From Luteibacter sp. (GTDB lineage Bacteria; Pseudomonadota; Gammaproteobacteria; Xanthomonadales; Rhodanobacteraceae), in NCBI RefSeq assembly GCF_009912395.1, contig NZ_WNDO01000029.1, forward strand, positions 1 to 64,000: a DNA stretch of 64,000 nucleotides. The letters are read 5' to 3'. Numbering within the stretch: the stretch's first letter is position 1; the number at the start of each line of letters is the position of its first letter. The notes under the pieces were generated by a model. That model was not told the DNA's origin, did not search any database, and saw only the letters and a list, made by a program, of their open reading frames with translations. The translations under genes were made by a program, and so were the position numbers. Below are positions 2,475-64,000 of the stretch, one piece after another.

Positions 2475-5400
2475 ATGTCCTCTGAAGAAAAGCAGCGTCA
2501 CTGGCTGGCCGACCAGCCCCTCCAGCGCAAGATCGTGATCGCCATCGGCGCGCTTCTCGTGCTGTTCGTGGCGGCATGCATCGCCAACCTCATCTCCATG
2601 GGACGGGAAAGCGAGACCCGCAGTTGGTCGCGCCATACCTACGTGGTGCTACTGACCCTGGCCGATGTGGGCGGGGACGCGCAATCGCGCCAGGTCGCGT
2701 CGCGGGGCTACCTGCTCAACCTGTCCAACGACGAGTACGCGGACTTCGAGACGGCCGACCGCGACCTCGCGACCAGCGTCGGCAAGCTGCGCCAGCTCAC
2801 CTCGGACAACCCGCTCCAGCAGGGACGCATCGATCGCCTCCAGGAAATGCTCGATCGCTGGAAGACCGAAGTGAAGACGATGGCCCTGGACCCGATCCGG
2901 GCCACGGGCACGGAGATCACGCCGGAGAGCCTTGTCGCCCGCGACACCATCCGCCGAAGCTACCTGGCGCGTCGCACCGTCCTGATGACGGACATCCGCA
3001 AGCTCATCGACGACATGTCGGACACCGAGGAAAAGCTGCTCGACCTCCGCAACGGCGAACTCGACAGCACGCTGAAGACCACCAAGTACCTCAATATCGC
3101 CTCGCTGGTGATCTGCCTGCTGTTCGGCGCGGCGGTCATCATGATGACCTTCCGCCTCATCACGCGCCCCATCGTCCGCATGACGGAGCTGATGACGCGC
3201 CTGGCCGCGCACGACCACAGCATCGAGGTGCGCCAGCTGAGCCGCCGCGACGAAATCGGCGAGATCGCCCGCGCGCTCCAGATCTTCAAGGAAATGGCGA
3301 TCGAGACGGCCGGGCAGACCTGGCTGAAGTCCGTGGCTTCCACGGTGTCGAGCAAGCTGCAGGAAGCCACCACCTACCGCGACTTCGCCGATACGCTGGT
3401 CACCGAGCTGGTGCCCGCGCTCAAGGCCGGCGTCGGCGTCTTCTACCTGTTCCGCGAAGAGACCTCGCGCCTGGAGCTGATCGGCAGCTACGGTTTCAAG
3501 CAGCGTCGCCACGTCACCACCGAGTACGCGCTGGGCGAAGGCCTCGTGGGCCAGGTGGCGATCGAGCGCAGCACGATCGTGCTGCAGGACGTGCCCGACG
3601 ACTACACCCGCATCCACTCGGGCACGGGCGAAGCGTCGCCGCGTAGCGTTGTTTTGGTGCCGGTGGTGTCGCGCGACACGCTGCTGGGCGTGATCGAGAT
3701 CGCCAGCTTCGCGCATCTGTCCGCCGTGGAAGAACGCCTGCTCGACGAGCTGATGCCGGTGGTGGCGCTGTCGCTGGAGAACCTCACCCGCGCGCTGCGC
3801 ACCAGCGTGCTGCTGGGCCAGACGCAGAGCCAGGCCGACGAGCTGCGCGCTTCCGAGGAAGCCATGCGCCGCCAGCAGGAAGACCTGCGCGAGACCAACG
3901 AAGAGCTCAAGAACAAGACCGCCGAGCTGGAGGAACAATCCCAGCGCCTTGTCGCTTCGGAGGAAGAATTGCGTGTGCAGACCGAAGAGCTGCACGCGTC
4001 CAACGAGGAACTGCGCGAGAAGAGCGTCACCCTCAACCAGCAGAAGGACGCCCTGGAATCCCTGCAGAAGGAAACCCAGGACAAGGCCGAGGAACTGGCG
4101 CGCGCCAGCCAGTACAAGTCCGAATTCCTCGCCAACATGTCGCATGAGCTGCGCACACCGCTCAACAGCCTGTTGATCCTGTCGCGCAGCCTCGCGGACA
4201 ACGACGAGCACAACCTTACCGGCGAGCAGGTCGAATCCGCGCGCATCATCCACGATGCCGGCAGCAACCTGCTGCGCCTCATCAACGACATCCTCGACCT
4301 GTCCAAGGTGGAGGCCGGCAAGATGGAGCTGATGCTCGACGGCTTCTCCCTCACCGACCTTGCCCGCACCCTGGGCCGCACGTTCAACCACGTGGCCCAG
4401 GAAAAAGATCTTCGCTTCGTGGTCGAGTTGCAGCCGGGCCTGCCTGAGACGATCCGCACCGACGGCGGCAAGCTGGAACAGGTGGCGAACAACCTGCTGA
4501 GCAACGCCTTCAAGTTCACGTCCGAAGGTAGCGTCGCCTTGCGCATCGCGCGGCCGGTGGCCGGCGCCACGCTGCCGACGGGCATGGACCCCGCGCATAC
4601 GGTGATGATCGCCGTCACCGACTCGGGCATCGGCATTCCCGCCGACAAGTTCGAGCGCGTGTTCCACGCCTTCGAACAGGTGGACGCGAGCACCAGCCGC
4701 CAGTACGGCGGCACGGGCCTGGGCCTGGCCATCTCGCGGCGCATCGCCAACCTGCTGGGTGGCGACATCACGCTGGAAAGCGAGGCCGGCAAGGGCAGCA
4801 CCTTCACCATCTTCCTGCCTGACGAGGCGCCCGACAGCGGCACGCGTCCGGAGCCGGTGCCGCTCCAGCAGGCCGCCGCCGAGGCCACCCTGCCCCTTTC
4901 GCCCTCCCTCATCGCGGACAGCATCGCCGACGACCGCGCGTCGCTGTCGCCAGGCGACACCGCGATCCTGGTGGTGGAAGACGACCCCGCCTTCGCGCGC
5001 ATCCTCGCGGACATGATCCATCGCAAGGGTCACCGCGTGCTGGCCGCGGGCGATGGCGAATCCGGCCTCGCGCTGGCCCGGCAGTATCGCCCCACCGGCA
5101 TCCTGCTCGACGTCATGCTACCGGGCATGGACGGCTGGACCGTCATCGAGCGCCTGAAGGCCGACGCGGGTACGCGACACATCCCGGTGCATTTCATTTC
5201 CGCCACGGACGACTCGACCCGCGGCCTCGAACTTGGCGCGGTGGGTTTTCTCACCAAGCCGGTGAGCCGCGAGTCCATTTCCGCCGCCTTCGAGCGCCTG
5301 CTGCATTTCGCGAGCGGACGTACGCGCCACCTGCTGGTAGTCGACGACGACGCCAGCGCGCGTGCCGCCGTGCGCACGTTGCTGAAGGACGATTCGGTGG

Positions 5401-49166: not shown

Positions 49167-50502
49167 CCAGCGCTCCGCGCAGGCGTTCCGGCACCAGGTG
49201 CGAGGTACCGGGCGTCAGCCAGGGCTCGATGGGCAGTTCGTCCTTGTCCAATTGCGGCAGGATCTCGCGATGGAAACGCGAGACGAGCGTGTCCTCGCGC
49301 CATTCGGGACGTTCGGCCAGCGCGGCCAGCGCGGCACGCGCCTCCGCGCCTTCACCGACGCATTCGAACGGCTTGTGGTCCTTGTATTCCAGCAATGCGT
49401 CGAACGCGCCTGCCAGGGATTCGTCGTCGAGCAGGTTGCGGCCGAAGATCGACAGCAATCGCGGCTTGGGCATGAACGGCGCCAGCGCGAGAAAGACGAA
49501 ATGGCATTTCGGGCACTGCCCGCACCAGCGGTCCGCAGGCTTGGGCCCAAGGATCTTGAAGTTGCGGTTGCAGCTGGAGAACACGTTGAAATACTCGCCA
49601 CCCAGGCGCGCGAACGCACTGGTCACCGCCAGTTCCGACCACGGCCGCAGCAGCGAGCAGTAGTCGAGGTCGGCAGCGACGTGCGAATGCAGGTAGTCGT
49701 GCAGGGTCTTCTCGAATCCGAAGCCCTTGCTCCACTGATGGTTCACTTCCTGGCCGTCGTATTCCAGCGTCGCCACGGATGCCGAGCGCTCGTTGGCGAA
49801 GACGATGGAGTCGTAACCGTAGAGGATCGCGGCCAGCGCCAGGATCGCGGAATTGATCGCGGTGACCGGGATGTGCCCGTTCCATGCGCCAAGACGATTC
49901 AACTCGAACAGGCCCGGCGCGAGTTCGCGCGAGATGTTCAGCGTGGACAGTCCCGTACGCGCCGCGCACTCGGCGATCAGCGGCGAATTGCCGACCCATA
50001 CCGCCGTGGCTTCCGCACCGATGGATTTCACGGCCTCGACCGCGACCACCGAATCCTTGCCACCGCCGATCGGCAGCAGCGAGCGGTGCGGCAGGCCGAT
50101 GGCCGGTGCCTTGCCGCCGCCCTTGCCTTCGAAGGGAAAGCGGATACGGCCACGCAGGTCGAGACGGTTGCGATAGGCGAACTCGGCCAGTCCATGCAGG
50201 TACAGCGCGTCGGCGAGCGACGCGCTGTCCTCGTCGAGGGGTTCGCCCTCGACGACGATGGAAGCCGGAATACCGGCCTTGTAGTAGCTGACGCCGGCGA
50301 CCAAATGAAGCAGGCGCAGGGCCGCCGCGAAGGCGGCCTCGCGTCCGGCCGGCACCTGGGGGGCACCGGGGAAGGTCACGCGCTCGACCAGCTCGGGGCC
50401 GTTGTCGAACGCATAGGCCAACTCCGCCACGCCATCGACGAAGGCATGGCGGACGAAGCGGAAGCGTTCGCTTCCGCGCGGATCGGTGAACTGGGTTGTC
50501 AC
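49153..50502 (-). CDS. murL: MurL, UDP-MurNAc-L-Ala-L-Glu epimerase
   Basis: A 449-residue cytosolic protein of the MurL type described from Xanthomonas, which inverts the terminal L-Glu to D-Glu in an ATP-dependent reaction. LLPIGGGKDSVVAVEAVK resembles a PP-loop/nucleotide site, FANERSASVATLEYDGQEVN is a distinctive core, and CNRNFKILGPK...WCGQCPKCHFVFLAL is a cysteine cluster. Start GTG 50502 overlaps the lysAC stop (GTGA). Together with MurD2 it would make glutamate racemase (MurI) dispensable. Confidence 0.87.
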   Translation of the reverse strand: MTTQFTDPRGSERFRFVRHAFVDGVAELAYAFDNGPELVERVTFPGAPQVPAGREAAFAAALRLLHLVAGVSYYKAGIPASIVVEGEPLDEDSASLADALYLHGLAEFAYRNRLDLRGRIRFPFEGKGGGKAPAIGLPHRSLLPIGGGKDSVVAVEAVKSIGAEATAVWVGNSPLIAECAARTGLSTLNISRELAPGLFELNRLGAWNGHIPVTAINSAILALAAILYGYDSIVFANERSASVATLEYDGQEVNHQWSKGFGFEKTLHDYLHSHVAADLDYCSLLRPWSELAVTSAFARLGGEYFNVFSSCNRNFKILGPKPADRWCGQCPKCHFVFLALAPFMPKPRLLSIFGRNLLDDESLAGAFDALLEYKDHKPFECVGEGAEARAALAALAERPEWREDTLVSRFHREILPQLDKDELPIEPWLTPGTSHLVPERLRGALDALG

Positions 50503-53111
50503 GGCAGGATCACCTCGTCGGCCTCGTCACGCAGGTTGTACCGCGATGCCATGGCGGCACCGTAGGCACCAGCCTGCGCGATCAGGATCACATCGTCCTC
50601 GCGGGATTCGGGCAGGCGCCGGTCGGAACCGAGGATATCCCCTGACTCGCAGATCGGGCCGACCACCTGGTACATCGTGGTGGCGGGTTCGCCGAAGCGC
50701 GAGAGGTTGGCGATCTCGTGCCATGCGTCGTACAGCGCCGGGCGGATGAGGCTGTTCATGCCCGTGTCGATGCCGAGGTAACGCACGTTGGCGCCCTTTT
50801 CCTTTTCCTGCGTGACCTTGGCCAGCAGGACGCCGGCGTCGGCGACGAGGTAGCGGCCCGGCTCCATCCACAACTGGAACTGCGGATAGGCCTGGCGCAC
50901 CGAGGTTATGATCCGGTCGAGGGCGACCATGTCCAGCGGCGTCTCGCCCGGATGGGACGGCACGCCGAGCCCGCCGCCGATGTTCAGCACCGCGATGGTG
51001 CCGATGCGCTCGGCGAGCGCGGCGAACTGCGAATACACCTCGCCCCAGTGACCGGCATCGAGGATGCCCGAACCCAGGTGGGCATGCAGGCCAATCACCC
51101 GCGCACCCGCCGCGTCGGCAAGACGCAGGAAGCGATCCACGTGCTCGATGGGCACGCCGAACTTGCTGCCCGTGCCGCCGGTCTTCACCTTGTCGTGGTG
51201 GCCGAGGCCACGCCCCAGGTCCACGCGCAGCATGATGTCGCGACCGGCGAACATGTCGCCCCAGTGCTCGATCGGATGCAATGCATCGATGGTGATGGTG
51301 GCGCGGGTTTCCAGCGCGGCGGCGAAGTCGCGACGCGAGGCGAAGTTGGGCGTGAACAGCAGCGGCGCACTCTCGGGCACCACGGCGGACACTGCCGCCA
51401 GCTCGCCCGGCGAGACGCATTCAAACGCGAAGCCTTCTTCCGCCAACGCGCGCAGGATCGCCGGATGCGTGTTGGCCTTCACCGCGTAATGCACGCGATC
51501 CACGGCCTTCAGCGACTTCACCCGACGCGCCTGGGCACGCACGGTCGGCAGATGGTAGACGTAGCGCGGCGTGCGCTCGCGGGCCAGTTCGAGCAGGCGC
51601 GGACGCTCGCCCTGCCACCACGCGGCGGCGGGCAATGCTTGCTCACCGCTGCCGTAGAGCGACTGCCAGCTCGGACCGAACACCATGCTGTCGTCGGTGC
51701 GCAGGGCACCGGCACCGATCAGCAGTTCGTGCAGGCGCGGCAGCATGTTGTCGACGACGTCCTCGTCCACCACGAAGGTGAGGTTGAGGTTGTTCGACGA
51801 CTGCGAGATCAGATGCACGCGCAGCTGGCCGAATTCGGCCAGCACACCCGACAGTTTGTGCAGCATCGAACGCATGCCACGACCCACCAGGGTGATGGCG
51901 GCGCAGGACGCGATCACCTTCACCCGGCAGACGCGGGCCAGGTCCGCCGCGAGGGCGGCGATGGCGTCGGAGTCGAGCAGGTTCTCGGTGGGATCGAGCG
52001 ACACCGTCACGTTGGTTTCGGCCGAACCGATGAGATCCACCGAAAGGCCATGGCGCTTGAAGGCATCGAACACGTCGGCGAGGAAGCCGACCTGCTGCCA
52101 CATGCCGACCGATTCCATCGAGATGAGCGTGATGCCCTTGCGCGCGCTGATCGCCTTCACGCTCGGCGCATGCTCGCGTACCTCGGGGCCGATCACCGTG
52201 CCCTCGAGTTCGGGACGGTTGGTGTCCTTCACCAGCAAGGGCACGCGCGGCTCGCGCAACGGCGACAGGCAGCGCGGATGCAGCACTTTGGCGCCGGTGG
52301 AGGCGATTTCCTGGGCTTCTTCGTAGTCCAGGCGCTGGAGCAGGCGCGCACCGGCGACCTGCCGGGGATTGGCGCTGAACATGCCGGCCACGTCGGTCCA
52401 GATCTCCACGCGCGCCGCCGCCAGCAGCGCACCGAAGTACGCCGCCGAGGTATCCGAGCCACCGCGCCCCAACAGCACCGTGCGGCCGTCGTCGTCCCGG
52501 GCGATGAAGCCCTGGGTGATGAAGACCTCGCCACGCTCCGCCAGCGCGGCCGAAAGCGCCGCGTCGTGGTGGGGCTCGACCATGGCCGAGAGCAGGCGGG
52601 TGCGCTCGTTCTGGTTCGGCAAGGCAACGGCATGCAGGCACTCGCGCGCGTCCACCCACGTGGTGGGCAGGCCGTTGGCACTGAGGAAAGCCGCACCGAG
52701 GGCGCTGGACATCAGCTCGCCATGCGCCTGCACGGCGGCCTGCCAGGCCAGCTCGCCCAGCACGGACGATCCGGTATCGGCGAGATCCGCGAGGTCGGCA
52801 AGGCGGGCGCCCAGGGTCTGTGGCATCGCCAGCGACATCTCGGCGAGTAGGGCGTGGTGACGATCGGCCAGTGCGGAGGCCGCATCCGAGCGGCGTTTGG
52901 GTTCGGAGTGAGTGCAAAGCTGTTTCAGGCCGTCGGTGATACCGGACAGGGCCGAGACCACGATCAGCACGCGTGCGCCTTCGGCGCGGCGGCTGGCGGC
53001 CAGCTCGAGGATATTGCGCCAGCGTGCGGCGGTGGCCACGGAGGTGCCGCCGAACTTCATGACGATCCAGGGCGCGTTGACAGTCAACGGCGCGTTTGCG
53101 TTCTCGCTCAC
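50499..53111 (-). CDS. Bifunctional aspartate kinase/diaminopimelate decarboxylase
   Basis: An 870-residue cytosolic fusion. The N-terminal aspartokinase (about 1-450) has VMKFGGTSVATAARW, FIARDDDGRTVLLGRGGSDT and ACT regulatory domains. The C-terminal decarboxylase (about 480-870) has YAVKANTHPAIL with the PLP lysine, LHAHLGSGI, WMEPGRYLVADAG, and CESGDIL. It joins the first and last steps of lysine synthesis, a fusion known in xanthomonads. GTG 53111 is used. Coupled to murL and murD2, it groups the DAP and D-Glu supply for peptidoglycan. Confidence 0.93.
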   Translation of the reverse strand: MSENANAPLTVNAPWIVMKFGGTSVATAARWRNILELAASRRAEGARVLIVVSALSGITDGLKQLCTHSEPKRRSDAASALADRHHALLAEMSLAMPQTLGARLADLADLADTGSSVLGELAWQAAVQAHGELMSSALGAAFLSANGLPTTWVDARECLHAVALPNQNERTRLLSAMVEPHHDAALSAALAERGEVFITQGFIARDDDGRTVLLGRGGSDTSAAYFGALLAAARVEIWTDVAGMFSANPRQVAGARLLQRLDYEEAQEIASTGAKVLHPRCLSPLREPRVPLLVKDTNRPELEGTVIGPEVREHAPSVKAISARKGITLISMESVGMWQQVGFLADVFDAFKRHGLSVDLIGSAETNVTVSLDPTENLLDSDAIAALAADLARVCRVKVIASCAAITLVGRGMRSMLHKLSGVLAEFGQLRVHLISQSSNNLNLTFVVDEDVVDNMLPRLHELLIGAGALRTDDSMVFGPSWQSLYGSGEQALPAAAWWQGERPRLLELARERTPRYVYHLPTVRAQARRVKSLKAVDRVHYAVKANTHPAILRALAEEGFAFECVSPGELAAVSAVVPESAPLLFTPNFASRRDFAAALETRATITIDALHPIEHWGDMFAGRDIMLRVDLGRGLGHHDKVKTGGTGSKFGVPIEHVDRFLRLADAAGARVIGLHAHLGSGILDAGHWGEVYSQFAALAERIGTIAVLNIGGGLGVPSHPGETPLDMVALDRIITSVRQAYPQFQLWMEPGRYLVADAGVLLAKVTQEKEKGANVRYLGIDTGMNSLIRPALYDAWHEIANLSRFGEPATTMYQVVGPICESGDILGSDRRLPESREDDVILIAQAGAYGAAMASRYNLRDEADEVILP

Positions 53112-53213
53112 GGGACTCTTCGGTTGGTGGGGAAAGCGGTAGGCCGGTGAAACCCGGCAAATTCTCCGAAGTGTTGCGCTGCAACGGGAAAAAGGCAAAC
53201 GCCCTTCCGCCTC

Positions 53214-53296
53214 TGTAGGAGCGCGCTTGCGCGCGATCACGGCTGCGACCGAAATTCCTGCTTCGCCGGGCTATCGCGCGCAAGCGCGCTCCTACA
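53214..53296. repeat. REP pair (head-to-head)
   Basis: Two 24-bp REP units with a 35-base centre, located between the divergent lysAC and permease genes, close to both promoters. Confidence 0.85.
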
Positions 53297-62482: not shown

Positions 62483-63406
62483 ATGGACACTATCGACCTG
62501 AACCTCCTGACCGCCCTGGACGCCCTGCTCGCCGAAGGCAGCGTGACCCGTGCGGCCCATCGCCTGAACCTCAGTGCCTCGGCCATGAGCCGTACGCTCA
62601 CCCGCCTGCGTGAGGCCACGGGCGATCCGCTGCTGGTGCGTGCGGGCCGGGGACTGGTTCCCACTCCCCATGCCATGGCGCTACGTGATCGCGTGCACGC
62701 CCTCTCACGGGACGTGCATACGGTGCTCAGCCCCGCGACCGACAGCGTGGATATGGCCTCTCTTGAGCGCACGTTCTTCCTGCGCGCGAACGAGGCGTTC
62801 ATCGCGTTCTTTTCGGTCCCCCTGCTTCGGACCATCGCCGAGACGGCTCCCCACGTACGCCTGCGCTTCATGCCGAAGCCCGACAAGGATGCGACGCCCT
62901 TACGCGAAGGACGGCTCGACCTGGAAATCGGTGTCGTCGAATCGCCACTGCCGGAGATGCGCGCCCAGCCGCTCTTCGAGGACGCACTGGTCGGTGTGGT
63001 GCGTGACGACCATCCGCTCGCCGCCGAGCGAAGGCCGAGTGCGGAACGCTTCGTGTCTTTCGGACATGTGGTGGCATCGCCCAAGGGCGAGATGTCACTC
63101 ACAGTGGACGATGCACTGAGCGCACGCGGCCTCAAGCGCGACGTGCGTGTCGTCGTGCCTGGCTTCCCCGATGCCCTGCGCATCGCGCGCCACACCGACC
63201 TCATCGCGACGGTGCCGCGCTCCTGCCTCGGCCACGCACTGACGACCGGCGAATCCCCGAGCGCAGGGCTCGTTACCTTCGAGATTCCCGTGGATACGCC
63301 ACGCTTCACTATTTCGGCCATCTGGCATCCGCGCATGGATGCCGATCAGGCGCATCGATGGTTGCGCGATGTGGTGATGTCGCTGTGTCGGCAGGCGTAT
63401 CCGTAG
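62483..63406 (+). CDS. LysR-family transcriptional regulator
   Basis: A 307-residue LysR protein of the NodD/PcpR-like branch (begins MDTIDLNLLTALDALLAEGS). The winged HTH (about 8-66) has VTRAAHRLNLSASAMSRTLT. The effector domain includes FLRANEAFIAFFSVPLL and GVVRDDHPLA. Divergent from the SDR gene; likely regulates it. Ends before the DnaA-box-rich array. Confidence 0.88.
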   Translation: MDTIDLNLLTALDALLAEGSVTRAAHRLNLSASAMSRTLTRLREATGDPLLVRAGRGLVPTPHAMALRDRVHALSRDVHTVLSPATDSVDMASLERTFFLRANEAFIAFFSVPLLRTIAETAPHVRLRFMPKPDKDATPLREGRLDLEIGVVESPLPEMRAQPLFEDALVGVVRDDHPLAAERRPSAERFVSFGHVVASPKGEMSLTVDDALSARGLKRDVRVVVPGFPDALRIARHTDLIATVPRSCLGHALTTGESPSAGLVTFEIPVDTPRFTISAIWHPRMDADQAHRWLRDVVMSLCRQAYP

Positions 63407-63426: not shown

Positions 63427-64000
63427 TGGTCATGCATTGACCAGGGAAACGCAACGCGTTGATCGGCATATCGGTTTGGGGGTTATCCACATCGTTATGC
63501 AGCGCGTATCCACATTCGGTGTGGATAAAACACGTAGTGTGCGAGCACTCGGCAACTGGTCATTCGCTAACCAGTGTGATGCAAGTCGTTGACGGCGAAG
63601 CCGGGAACAGGGTTATCCACACGCTTATGCAGTCACTGTCCACATTCGCTGTGGATATCGCGCACGAGGTGGCGAAGGATTAACCAGCATAAGCCAAGTC
63701 GTTGACCGTCAAGGCGGGATGCGACTTGTCCACATCCTTATGCAGCGCGTATCCACATTCCGTGTGGATAAACGCCTGGGCACCGTACGAGGTGTTCGTT
63801 GGTCACGCAGTAACCAAGGCGATGCAAGTGACTGACACGCAAGACGCGATGCGGCTTATCCACATGCTTATGCAGTCGCTGTCCACATTCGCTGTGGATA
63901 TCGCGGGGCGCGTGGTGAAAAATTAACCAGCACAACGCAAGTCATTGCTACTGAAAGCCGATTTCGACTTGTCCACACGCTTATGCAGGTGCTTTCCACA
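63427..64000. repeat. Higher-order tandem repeat rich in DnaA-box-like motifs (runs off the edge)
   Basis: Units begin at forward boxes 63483, 63613, 63726, 63856 and 63969, with spacing 130, 113, 130, 113 (243-bp super-period). Each full unit has TTATCCACA or TTGTCCACA, then TTATGCAG, then TATCCACA or TGTCCACA, a five-base loop and TGTGGATA(A). TGTGGATAA at 63520 and 63763 is the exact reverse of the DnaA box. A second motif, TGGTCA-N5-TGACCA or TGGTCA...TAACCA, lies in the long units (near 63558 and 63800) and at 63427-63443, with only TTAACCAG in the short ones. A conserved GCAAGT-x-x-TTGAC-like stretch follows. The apparent small ORFs here are just the repeat read in one frame. The tandem end is not in view. 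Confidence 0.9.

Follow-up and report, generated by a model that had tools for sequence, protein, structure and literature searches.

An array of DnaA-box modules at the end of the window

The window, by which we mean the whole stretch of DNA analysed (bases 1-64000 of the 73,418-b contig C22 of a Luteibacter genome), ends inside an array of five copies of a ~103-bp module flanked by two converging genes, a LysR-family regulator that stops just ahead of it and a transporter on its far side, and the fifth copy ends 14 bp past the window (Table 1). Throughout, family, order and class denote Rhodanobacteraceae, Xanthomonadales and Gammaproteobacteria, the source lineage of the window DNA. Counting both strands, TTATCCACA occurs five times in the 64-kb window, all within the array (expected 0.11; 0 of 100 shuffles reach five), and 15 near-consensus DnaA boxes with at most two mismatches, six of them exact, lie at the array.

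Table 1. Coordinates of the five units, the neighbouring genes and the related loci of the same genome
Feature	Position	Strand	Description
Unit 1	63427..63528	+	From profile and alignment: Fis-like dyad TGGTCA-n5-TGACCA 63427-63443; box1 63483-63491; box2 TTATGCAGC 63495-63503; box3 63506-63514; box4 (reverse) 63520-63528
Unit 2	63557..63658	+	Dyad 63557-63573; box1 63613-63621; box2 63625-63633; box3 63636-63644; box4 (reverse) 63650-63658
Unit 3 ("short")	63670..63771	+	Dyad, left half degenerate, 63670-63686; box1 TTGTCCACA 63726-63734; box2 63738-63746; box3 63749-63757; box4 (reverse) 63763-63771
Unit 4	63800..63901	+	Dyad 63800-63816; box1 63856-63864; box2 63868-63876; box3 63879-63887; box4 (reverse) 63893-63901
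Unit 5 ("short")	63913..64014 (window cuts at 64000)	+	Dyad, left half degenerate, 63913-63929; box1 TTGTCCACA 63969-63977; box2 63981-63989; box3 63992-64000; box4 64006-64014 (from L006)
LysR-family regulator gene	62483..63406	+	PF00126, PF03466; stops just ahead of array
Transporter gene	L006 6024-7142	-	PF03600; far side of array, beyond window; converges on array
Second locus, same genome	C23:232,268-232,685		Three modules; between PP2C gene and converging dnaQ-like frame (frame named by eye)
Third locus, same genome	C4:4,781-4,831		One degenerate module
Related single-copy site, same genome	C34:33,796-33,818		Upstream of priA

The first-pass annotation, made from the window alone, had marked five forward boxes that coincide with box1 of the five units, those at 63726 and 63969 being TTGTCCACA and not TTATCCACA. 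The repeated motif and stem that it described are also there, TTATGCAG and TNTCCACA-N5-TGTGGAT being present in all five units (the fifth completed from L006, a fetched locus that extends to the contig end). Its alternation of 130- and 113-bp units holds within the window, where it comes from linkers of 20, 1, 20 and 2 bp between the profile's unit ends, and does not extend to arrays in general: across 55 loci, 41 of 85 successive unit spacings are 111-132 bp and the others range up to 3,519 bp. It erred in taking the TGGTCA half-site to be missing from the short units, which have TGGCGA or TGGTGA there instead.

In the sequence past 64000, unit 5 ends at ~64014, the profile search of L006 found no further unit, and no replication gene was recognised among the reading frames adjoining the array in the window and L006. 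Tandem Repeats Finder missed the array. dnaA lies on a different contig, with DnaA boxes between it and the next gene. Of the marks of an oriC, no adjacent dnaA/dnaN was recognised at the array and no obvious AT-rich stretch that could serve as unwinding element lies near it in the sequence read, the AT-rich part being judged by eye alone. An ordinary oriC was rejected because dnaA is located elsewhere, and the earlier reading of the repeats as DnaA boxes outside an ordinary oriC fits the evidence. Elsewhere in the window, one long minus-strand frame (50499-53240) matches PF00696 and PF22468 (amino acid kinase and ACT) as well as PF02784 and PF00278 (pyridoxal-dependent decarboxylase) and is apparently an aspartate kinase fused to a diaminopimelate decarboxylase. 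Beyond the window, two adjoining minus-strand stretches at L006 7199-8600 are similar and look, by eye, like tandem paralogues.

Searched with a profile of the unit, the 55 loci fetched from 23 genomes gave 140 copies that score above 30 bits (excluding one shorter match on the reverse strand, at 17.6 bits); the 139 that exceed 50 bits were aligned. The aligned module is sharply bounded, at 103 bp, and consists from the left of the dyad TGGTCA-n5-TGACCA, a linker with GCAACGCAAGTnnnTTG, ~20 bp, box1 (TTRTCCACA), 3 bp, box2 (TTATGCAG), box3 (NTNTCCACA), 5 bp and box4, which is TTATCCACA on the opposite strand. Boxes 1-3 run in the same direction, with gaps of 3 bp between box1 and box2 and 2 bp between box2 and box3 (start-to-start 11); box3 starts 23 bp from the start of box1, and box4 faces box3 across 5 bp. 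Box2 (TTATGCAGG) has two mismatches to the DnaA consensus. Within the set mismatch limits, the four boxes stand at constant offsets in 137 of the 139 units. Mean information over the 139 units is 1.65-1.82 bits in the boxes, 1.56 in six core columns of the dyad and 1.22 in the linker motif, and falls to 0.46 bits in the 19-column spacer, 0.12 at the dyad centre and 0.12-0.14 outside the module. Binding positions that are near-invariant amid spacers that are near-random indicate that the sites are kept by selection and not by recent copying alone; fixed sites with mostly free intervals are the mark of selected protein-binding sites. The first-pass annotation had reasoned that copies with unconserved boxes would speak for a neutral repeat, and the opposite was found, the boxes being conserved and the spacers free.

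The conserved dyad columns G22, Y25, A26, T32, R33 and C36 coincide with the Fis consensus, given as GnnYAnnnnnTRnnC in PMC4245941. Of the 138 units that could be anchored (one could not), 110 match the strict consensus, 108 at a single position, and these matches are predicted sites; in the 108 units the 15-mer of the dyad ends 40 bp before box1 and 52 bp before box2. The linker between dyad and boxes (columns 43-55) conserves CAA-N4-tTG and does not conserve the WAT part of the IHF consensus, which GCAACGCAAGTnnnTTG thus fits only in part. Both IHF subunits, alpha and beta, are encoded in the genome (above NCBIfam cut-offs), as is a Fis-like protein of 90 residues, which scores best against the Fis family, at 74.5 bits with a cut-off of 99, and exceeds the cut-off of PF02954.

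Distribution of the arrays and their position in the genome

A strict module pattern with at most two mismatches matched all 23 genomes of the genus, 3-10 times each (control 0), and the profile likewise gives 3-10 modules per Luteibacter genome, so the array, whose count in relatives the first-pass annotation had seen as informative, recurs in all genus genomes searched. The exact pattern occurs in 18 stretches of named genomes, all Luteibacter, and none of the 210 remaining family genomes matched the strict pattern with TTATGCA. We dropped the view that the module is confined to Luteibacter when a looser pattern and the unit profile found diverged arrays in another genus of the family (g6), where six loci were fetched (L214-L219; best profile match E 6e-12). 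These arrays have modules of the form CTRTCCACA ... TCCACA-N5-TGTGGAAAA with a period of ~117 bp (L218, e.g. 4552-5251) or ~160 bp (L214, L215, L217), and L218 shares with Luteibacter a box1-to-box3 distance of 23 bp.

By their flanks, the 55 Luteibacter loci form groups that recur in several species (~14, 7, 6 and 5 loci, plus pairs), along with many singletons. This suggests that arrays are inherited vertically and turn over; one further genome has the window array (L006 and L057). The 18 array positions used from nine single-contig genomes (two of them within a single G103 locus) lie at 15.9-39.2% of genome length from dnaA, a pattern that is suggestive and not a test, as several of the 18 are orthologues; the related single-copy site of the same nine genomes lies 7.8-10.1% from dnaA. 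The group A locus L059 has its array upstream of miaA; a miaA-containing operon also lies close to E. coli datA, and we do not use this likeness to the group A arrays as evidence. The window array, the C23 array and that of the group B locus L050 (between a YkuD gene and sucD) lie between converging genes. One study holds that the position of DARS and datA relative to oriC matters and that transcription through them is harmful (PMC5010248), with which the converging-gene setting of this genome's two larger arrays agrees.

In 7 of the 55 loci (L057 6291-7086, L071 5751-6440, L090 5873-6784 and others) the modules are interspersed with REP-like GTAGGAGCG palindromes, and REP-like heads number 30 in 66.8 kb around arrays against 20 in 613.6 kb elsewhere. 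Several other identities were tried for the module and rejected: GTAG-type REP elements stand beside some arrays and are separate from the module, the module ends are not complementary, by eye, as integron attC sites would have them, and the search for tRNA or tmRNA returned only a tRNA-Ser, in L007.

A single-copy relative in Xanthomonadales

E. coli DARS1 and DARS2 are DnaA-reactivating sequences, which promote the release of ADP from DnaA and raise ATP-DnaA and initiation. Their map positions are 0.81 and 2.97 Mb (PMC5742627), and by these positions and the three-box arrangement we located their cores in MG1655 as TTATCCACT-5-TGTGGATAA-3-TGTGTATTA for DARS1 and TTATTCACC-5-TGTGGATAG-3-TGTGAAGAA for DARS2. 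Boxes I and II are opposed, their head-to-head contact stimulates ADP release, and their spacing is equal in DARS1 and DARS2, according to two papers (PMC8682772, PMC5742627). An opposed pair of this kind, TTATCCACA-N5-TGTGGATAA, occurs in 295 of 298 genomes of the order, mostly once (at most one mismatch; reversed-pattern control 0), in 227 of 233 of the family, again mostly once (at most two mismatches; control match in 3 genomes), and, likewise mostly once, in 191 of 276 of the class (at most one mismatch; control match in one genome). With gaps of 0-20 allowed, the gap among the matches listed was 5 in 72 of 75 and 17 in three. DARS-like sequences are described from E. coli-like species in PMC5010248 and PMC4585315, and the opposed pair with its 5-bp gap extends in the class beyond such species.

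Of these loci, 103 were read. Luteibacter supplied 23, three further family genera (g2-g4) 20, and the other order families and the class 30 each. The 30 order loci come from part of three other families; for family f2 (Xanthomonas-type), a large share of the order sample, the sites were counted only. Dropping 21 loci, 8 with an off-centre site (the contig end cuts the locus) and 13 without a site by the strict expression, left 82 single-copy sites, 43 of them from four family genera. Box III, with at most two mismatches, stands at gap 3 in 78 of the 82 sites and at each of 16 other offsets in 0-5 of them. By its sequence, the single-copy site has the arrangement of a DARS core, with boxes I and II opposed at 5 bp and box III at gap 3.

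In the 88 nt on the side of box III, the strict Fis-like dyad is present in all 23 Luteibacter sites (all 51-52 bp from box III), in 18 of 22 other sites of the order (17 at 51-52 bp), in 8 of the 18 from the class (51 bp in 5 of them) and in just 2 of 19 sites of genera g2-g4, many of which have a form like TTGGTGAAATTTCACCAA; the low counts in the last two groups make the protein that binds the dyad uncertain. On the opposite side the dyad was found in no Luteibacter and no other order site and once in each of the remaining two groups. We conclude from these sites that the order carries an element with the predicted DARS core and, in most of the sites read, a flanking dyad at a fixed distance.

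All 43 family loci have priA within the ~3-kb locus (20/20 in the three other genera, 23/23 in Luteibacter), and the family sites read lie upstream of priA and share its direction, with 96-428 bp from the site to the start of the PriA alignment. Among the other loci, priA is within the ~3 kb in 8 of 30 of the order and 8 of 30 of the class, and a priA link across the whole order was therefore dropped in favour of one that holds just for the family sites read. Family f9 of the order often has 2-4 DARS-core sites per genome, and the one in L160 adjoins a polA-like frame, by eye; among the places listed for this family, three have box chains with a 17-bp outer gap.

Proposed function and comparison with known systems

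We lean, with modest confidence, towards the array being a set of tandem amplified DARS-like DnaA-control modules that would act in nucleotide exchange, in titration or in both. DnaA would bind the strong boxes of the module, two opposed protomers on box3 and box4 would meet head-to-head, and Fis, possibly together with IHF, would bend or anchor the flank. ADP would then leave, and the apo-DnaA released would take up ATP, so that the array would recharge DnaA between initiations, while its boxes would additionally titrate DnaA. The genome has DnaA, IHF and Fis-like genes; DnaA binding, nucleotide exchange and an effect on initiation at the array are what we infer. A wider proposal, which we put forward only tentatively, is that DARS may not be an enterobacterial speciality, its core being near-universal in this order and common in Gammaproteobacteria, and that Luteibacter, with diverged arrays in its sister genus, may have made amplified mid-replichore Fis-DnaA arrays in which the number and position of modules govern DnaA recharging, as a distributed dose control of initiation.

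Titration is the main rival to a DARS-like role, since every module has strong boxes. As a pure sink, datA-like or of the box-cluster type and with no nucleotide exchange, the array would draw on its dense strong boxes, those 15 near-consensus ones at the window locus among them, and on its several copies per genome, and clusters of DnaA boxes that repress initiation are described in PMC4585315 from Bacillus subtilis and Streptomyces coelicolor. Titration alone does not explain why the opposed pair keeps strictly to 5 bp, why the dyad distance is fixed or why 137 of 139 units keep their phasing, and we think it unlikely as the whole account, although titration and a DARS-like role may both hold. 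The datA-like titration site suggested by the first-pass annotation fits the evidence, and DARS is the closer match, by the 5-bp opposed pair and the Fis-like dyad at a fixed distance. A neutral or selfish repeat dispersed with REP-type elements would account for the many loci whose flanks are unlike those of any other fetched locus, and for the denser REP-like heads around arrays, though these are in just 7 of 55 loci; given the position-specific constraint with free spacers, the several locus groups that share both flanks (the largest of ~14 loci) and the presence in 23 of 23 genus genomes, we hold it improbable.

That the module is a DnaA/Fis operator controlling neighbouring genes is suggested by the single-copy relative upstream of priA and in its direction at the family sites, and by the L059 array upstream of miaA, but the window, C23 and L050 arrays lie between converging genes and flanks vary among many loci, which makes an operator decidedly improbable. 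The cluster of DnaA boxes also recalls a secondary chromosomal origin or an integrated plasmid or phage origin, two of which, the secondary origin and the plasmid, the first-pass annotation had entertained; given that dnaA and its neighbouring boxes are on another contig, that the module stands at three loci of the genome, and that beside the array we recognised no replication gene and saw by eye no obvious AT-rich stretch, any such origin is highly improbable. A structural RNA with two hairpins, likewise among the earlier suggestions, seems to us extremely improbable. Both dyads could form stems with 5-nt loops, and columns 100/122, outermost in the box stem, pair slightly more often than shuffled columns do (0.37 vs 0.31; 5 of 500 shuffles reach it), the rest of that stem varying so little that it says nothing on pairing. 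The Fis-like dyad stem, however, has no compensatory change and pairs no better than shuffled (35 of 139 units have C-A at columns 25/33), and an RNA gene was rejected on this result and on the lack of any Rfam match at the arrays (40 kb around three loci).

The DARS-like reading bears on the reach of the DnaA switch (datA/DARS) beyond E. coli and its near relatives and on how switch and titration divide the control of initiation. Luteibacter offers a natural dose series, module number (3-10) and oriC distance differing between species, and the single-copy site with its exact DARS core spacing is a clear and testable DARS candidate in this order. Among the matches listed in a search of titles and abstracts, from which subscription journals were mostly outside, there was no DARS in this order and no tandem DARS.

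E. coli datA is a cluster of DnaA boxes outside oriC that lowers initiation potential and shows IHF-dependent hydrolysis of DnaA-bound ATP. The array is likewise a DnaA-box cluster outside oriC, but the 1-kb datA stretch scanned has no 5-bp opposed pair (at most one mismatch), its own opposed pair having a gap of 3 bp. The clusters of B. subtilis and S. coelicolor, which hold back initiation, resemble the array as box clusters outside oriC and are set apart, by description, by its fixed tandem module, Fis-type dyad and gammaproteobacterial host. The likeness to DARS goes further. Box4 and box3 correspond to boxes I and II, opposed across a 5-bp gap (137/139 units) as in DARS1 and DARS2, and further boxes (box2 and box1) follow in tandem past box II in the direction of box3. 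E. coli DARS2 requires IHF and has IHF and Fis sites in the flank beyond box III; the same flank of the array has the Fis-consensus dyad (110/138 units). Like DARS, the arrays lie away from oriC and terminus, at 16-39% of the genome from dnaA in the nine genomes, the E. coli distances from oriC being 20.6% for DARS2, 32.9% for DARS1 and ~10% for datA.

The arrays differ from DARS in being tandem where DARS are single sites, with an extra fourth box in each compact ~103-bp module, a dyad 52 bp from box2, and 3-10 modules per Luteibacter genome at loci that differ between species. The gap between boxes II and III is 2 bp in place of 3 (start-to-start 11 vs 12). The two tandem gaps of the module, 2 and 3 bp, match the 2-3 bp given in PMC8682772 as the interval best for cooperative head-to-tail DnaA binding; box III of the array is one base off, and we therefore file it as DARS-like and not as DARS. 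One unit had no blastn match in E. coli genomes at E 10, and box geometry alone is in common. On sequence grounds the simplest account of the Luteibacter arrays is that they would be amplified DARS-like sites, with the dyad distance of the single-copy site, one more box and a II-III gap one base tighter.
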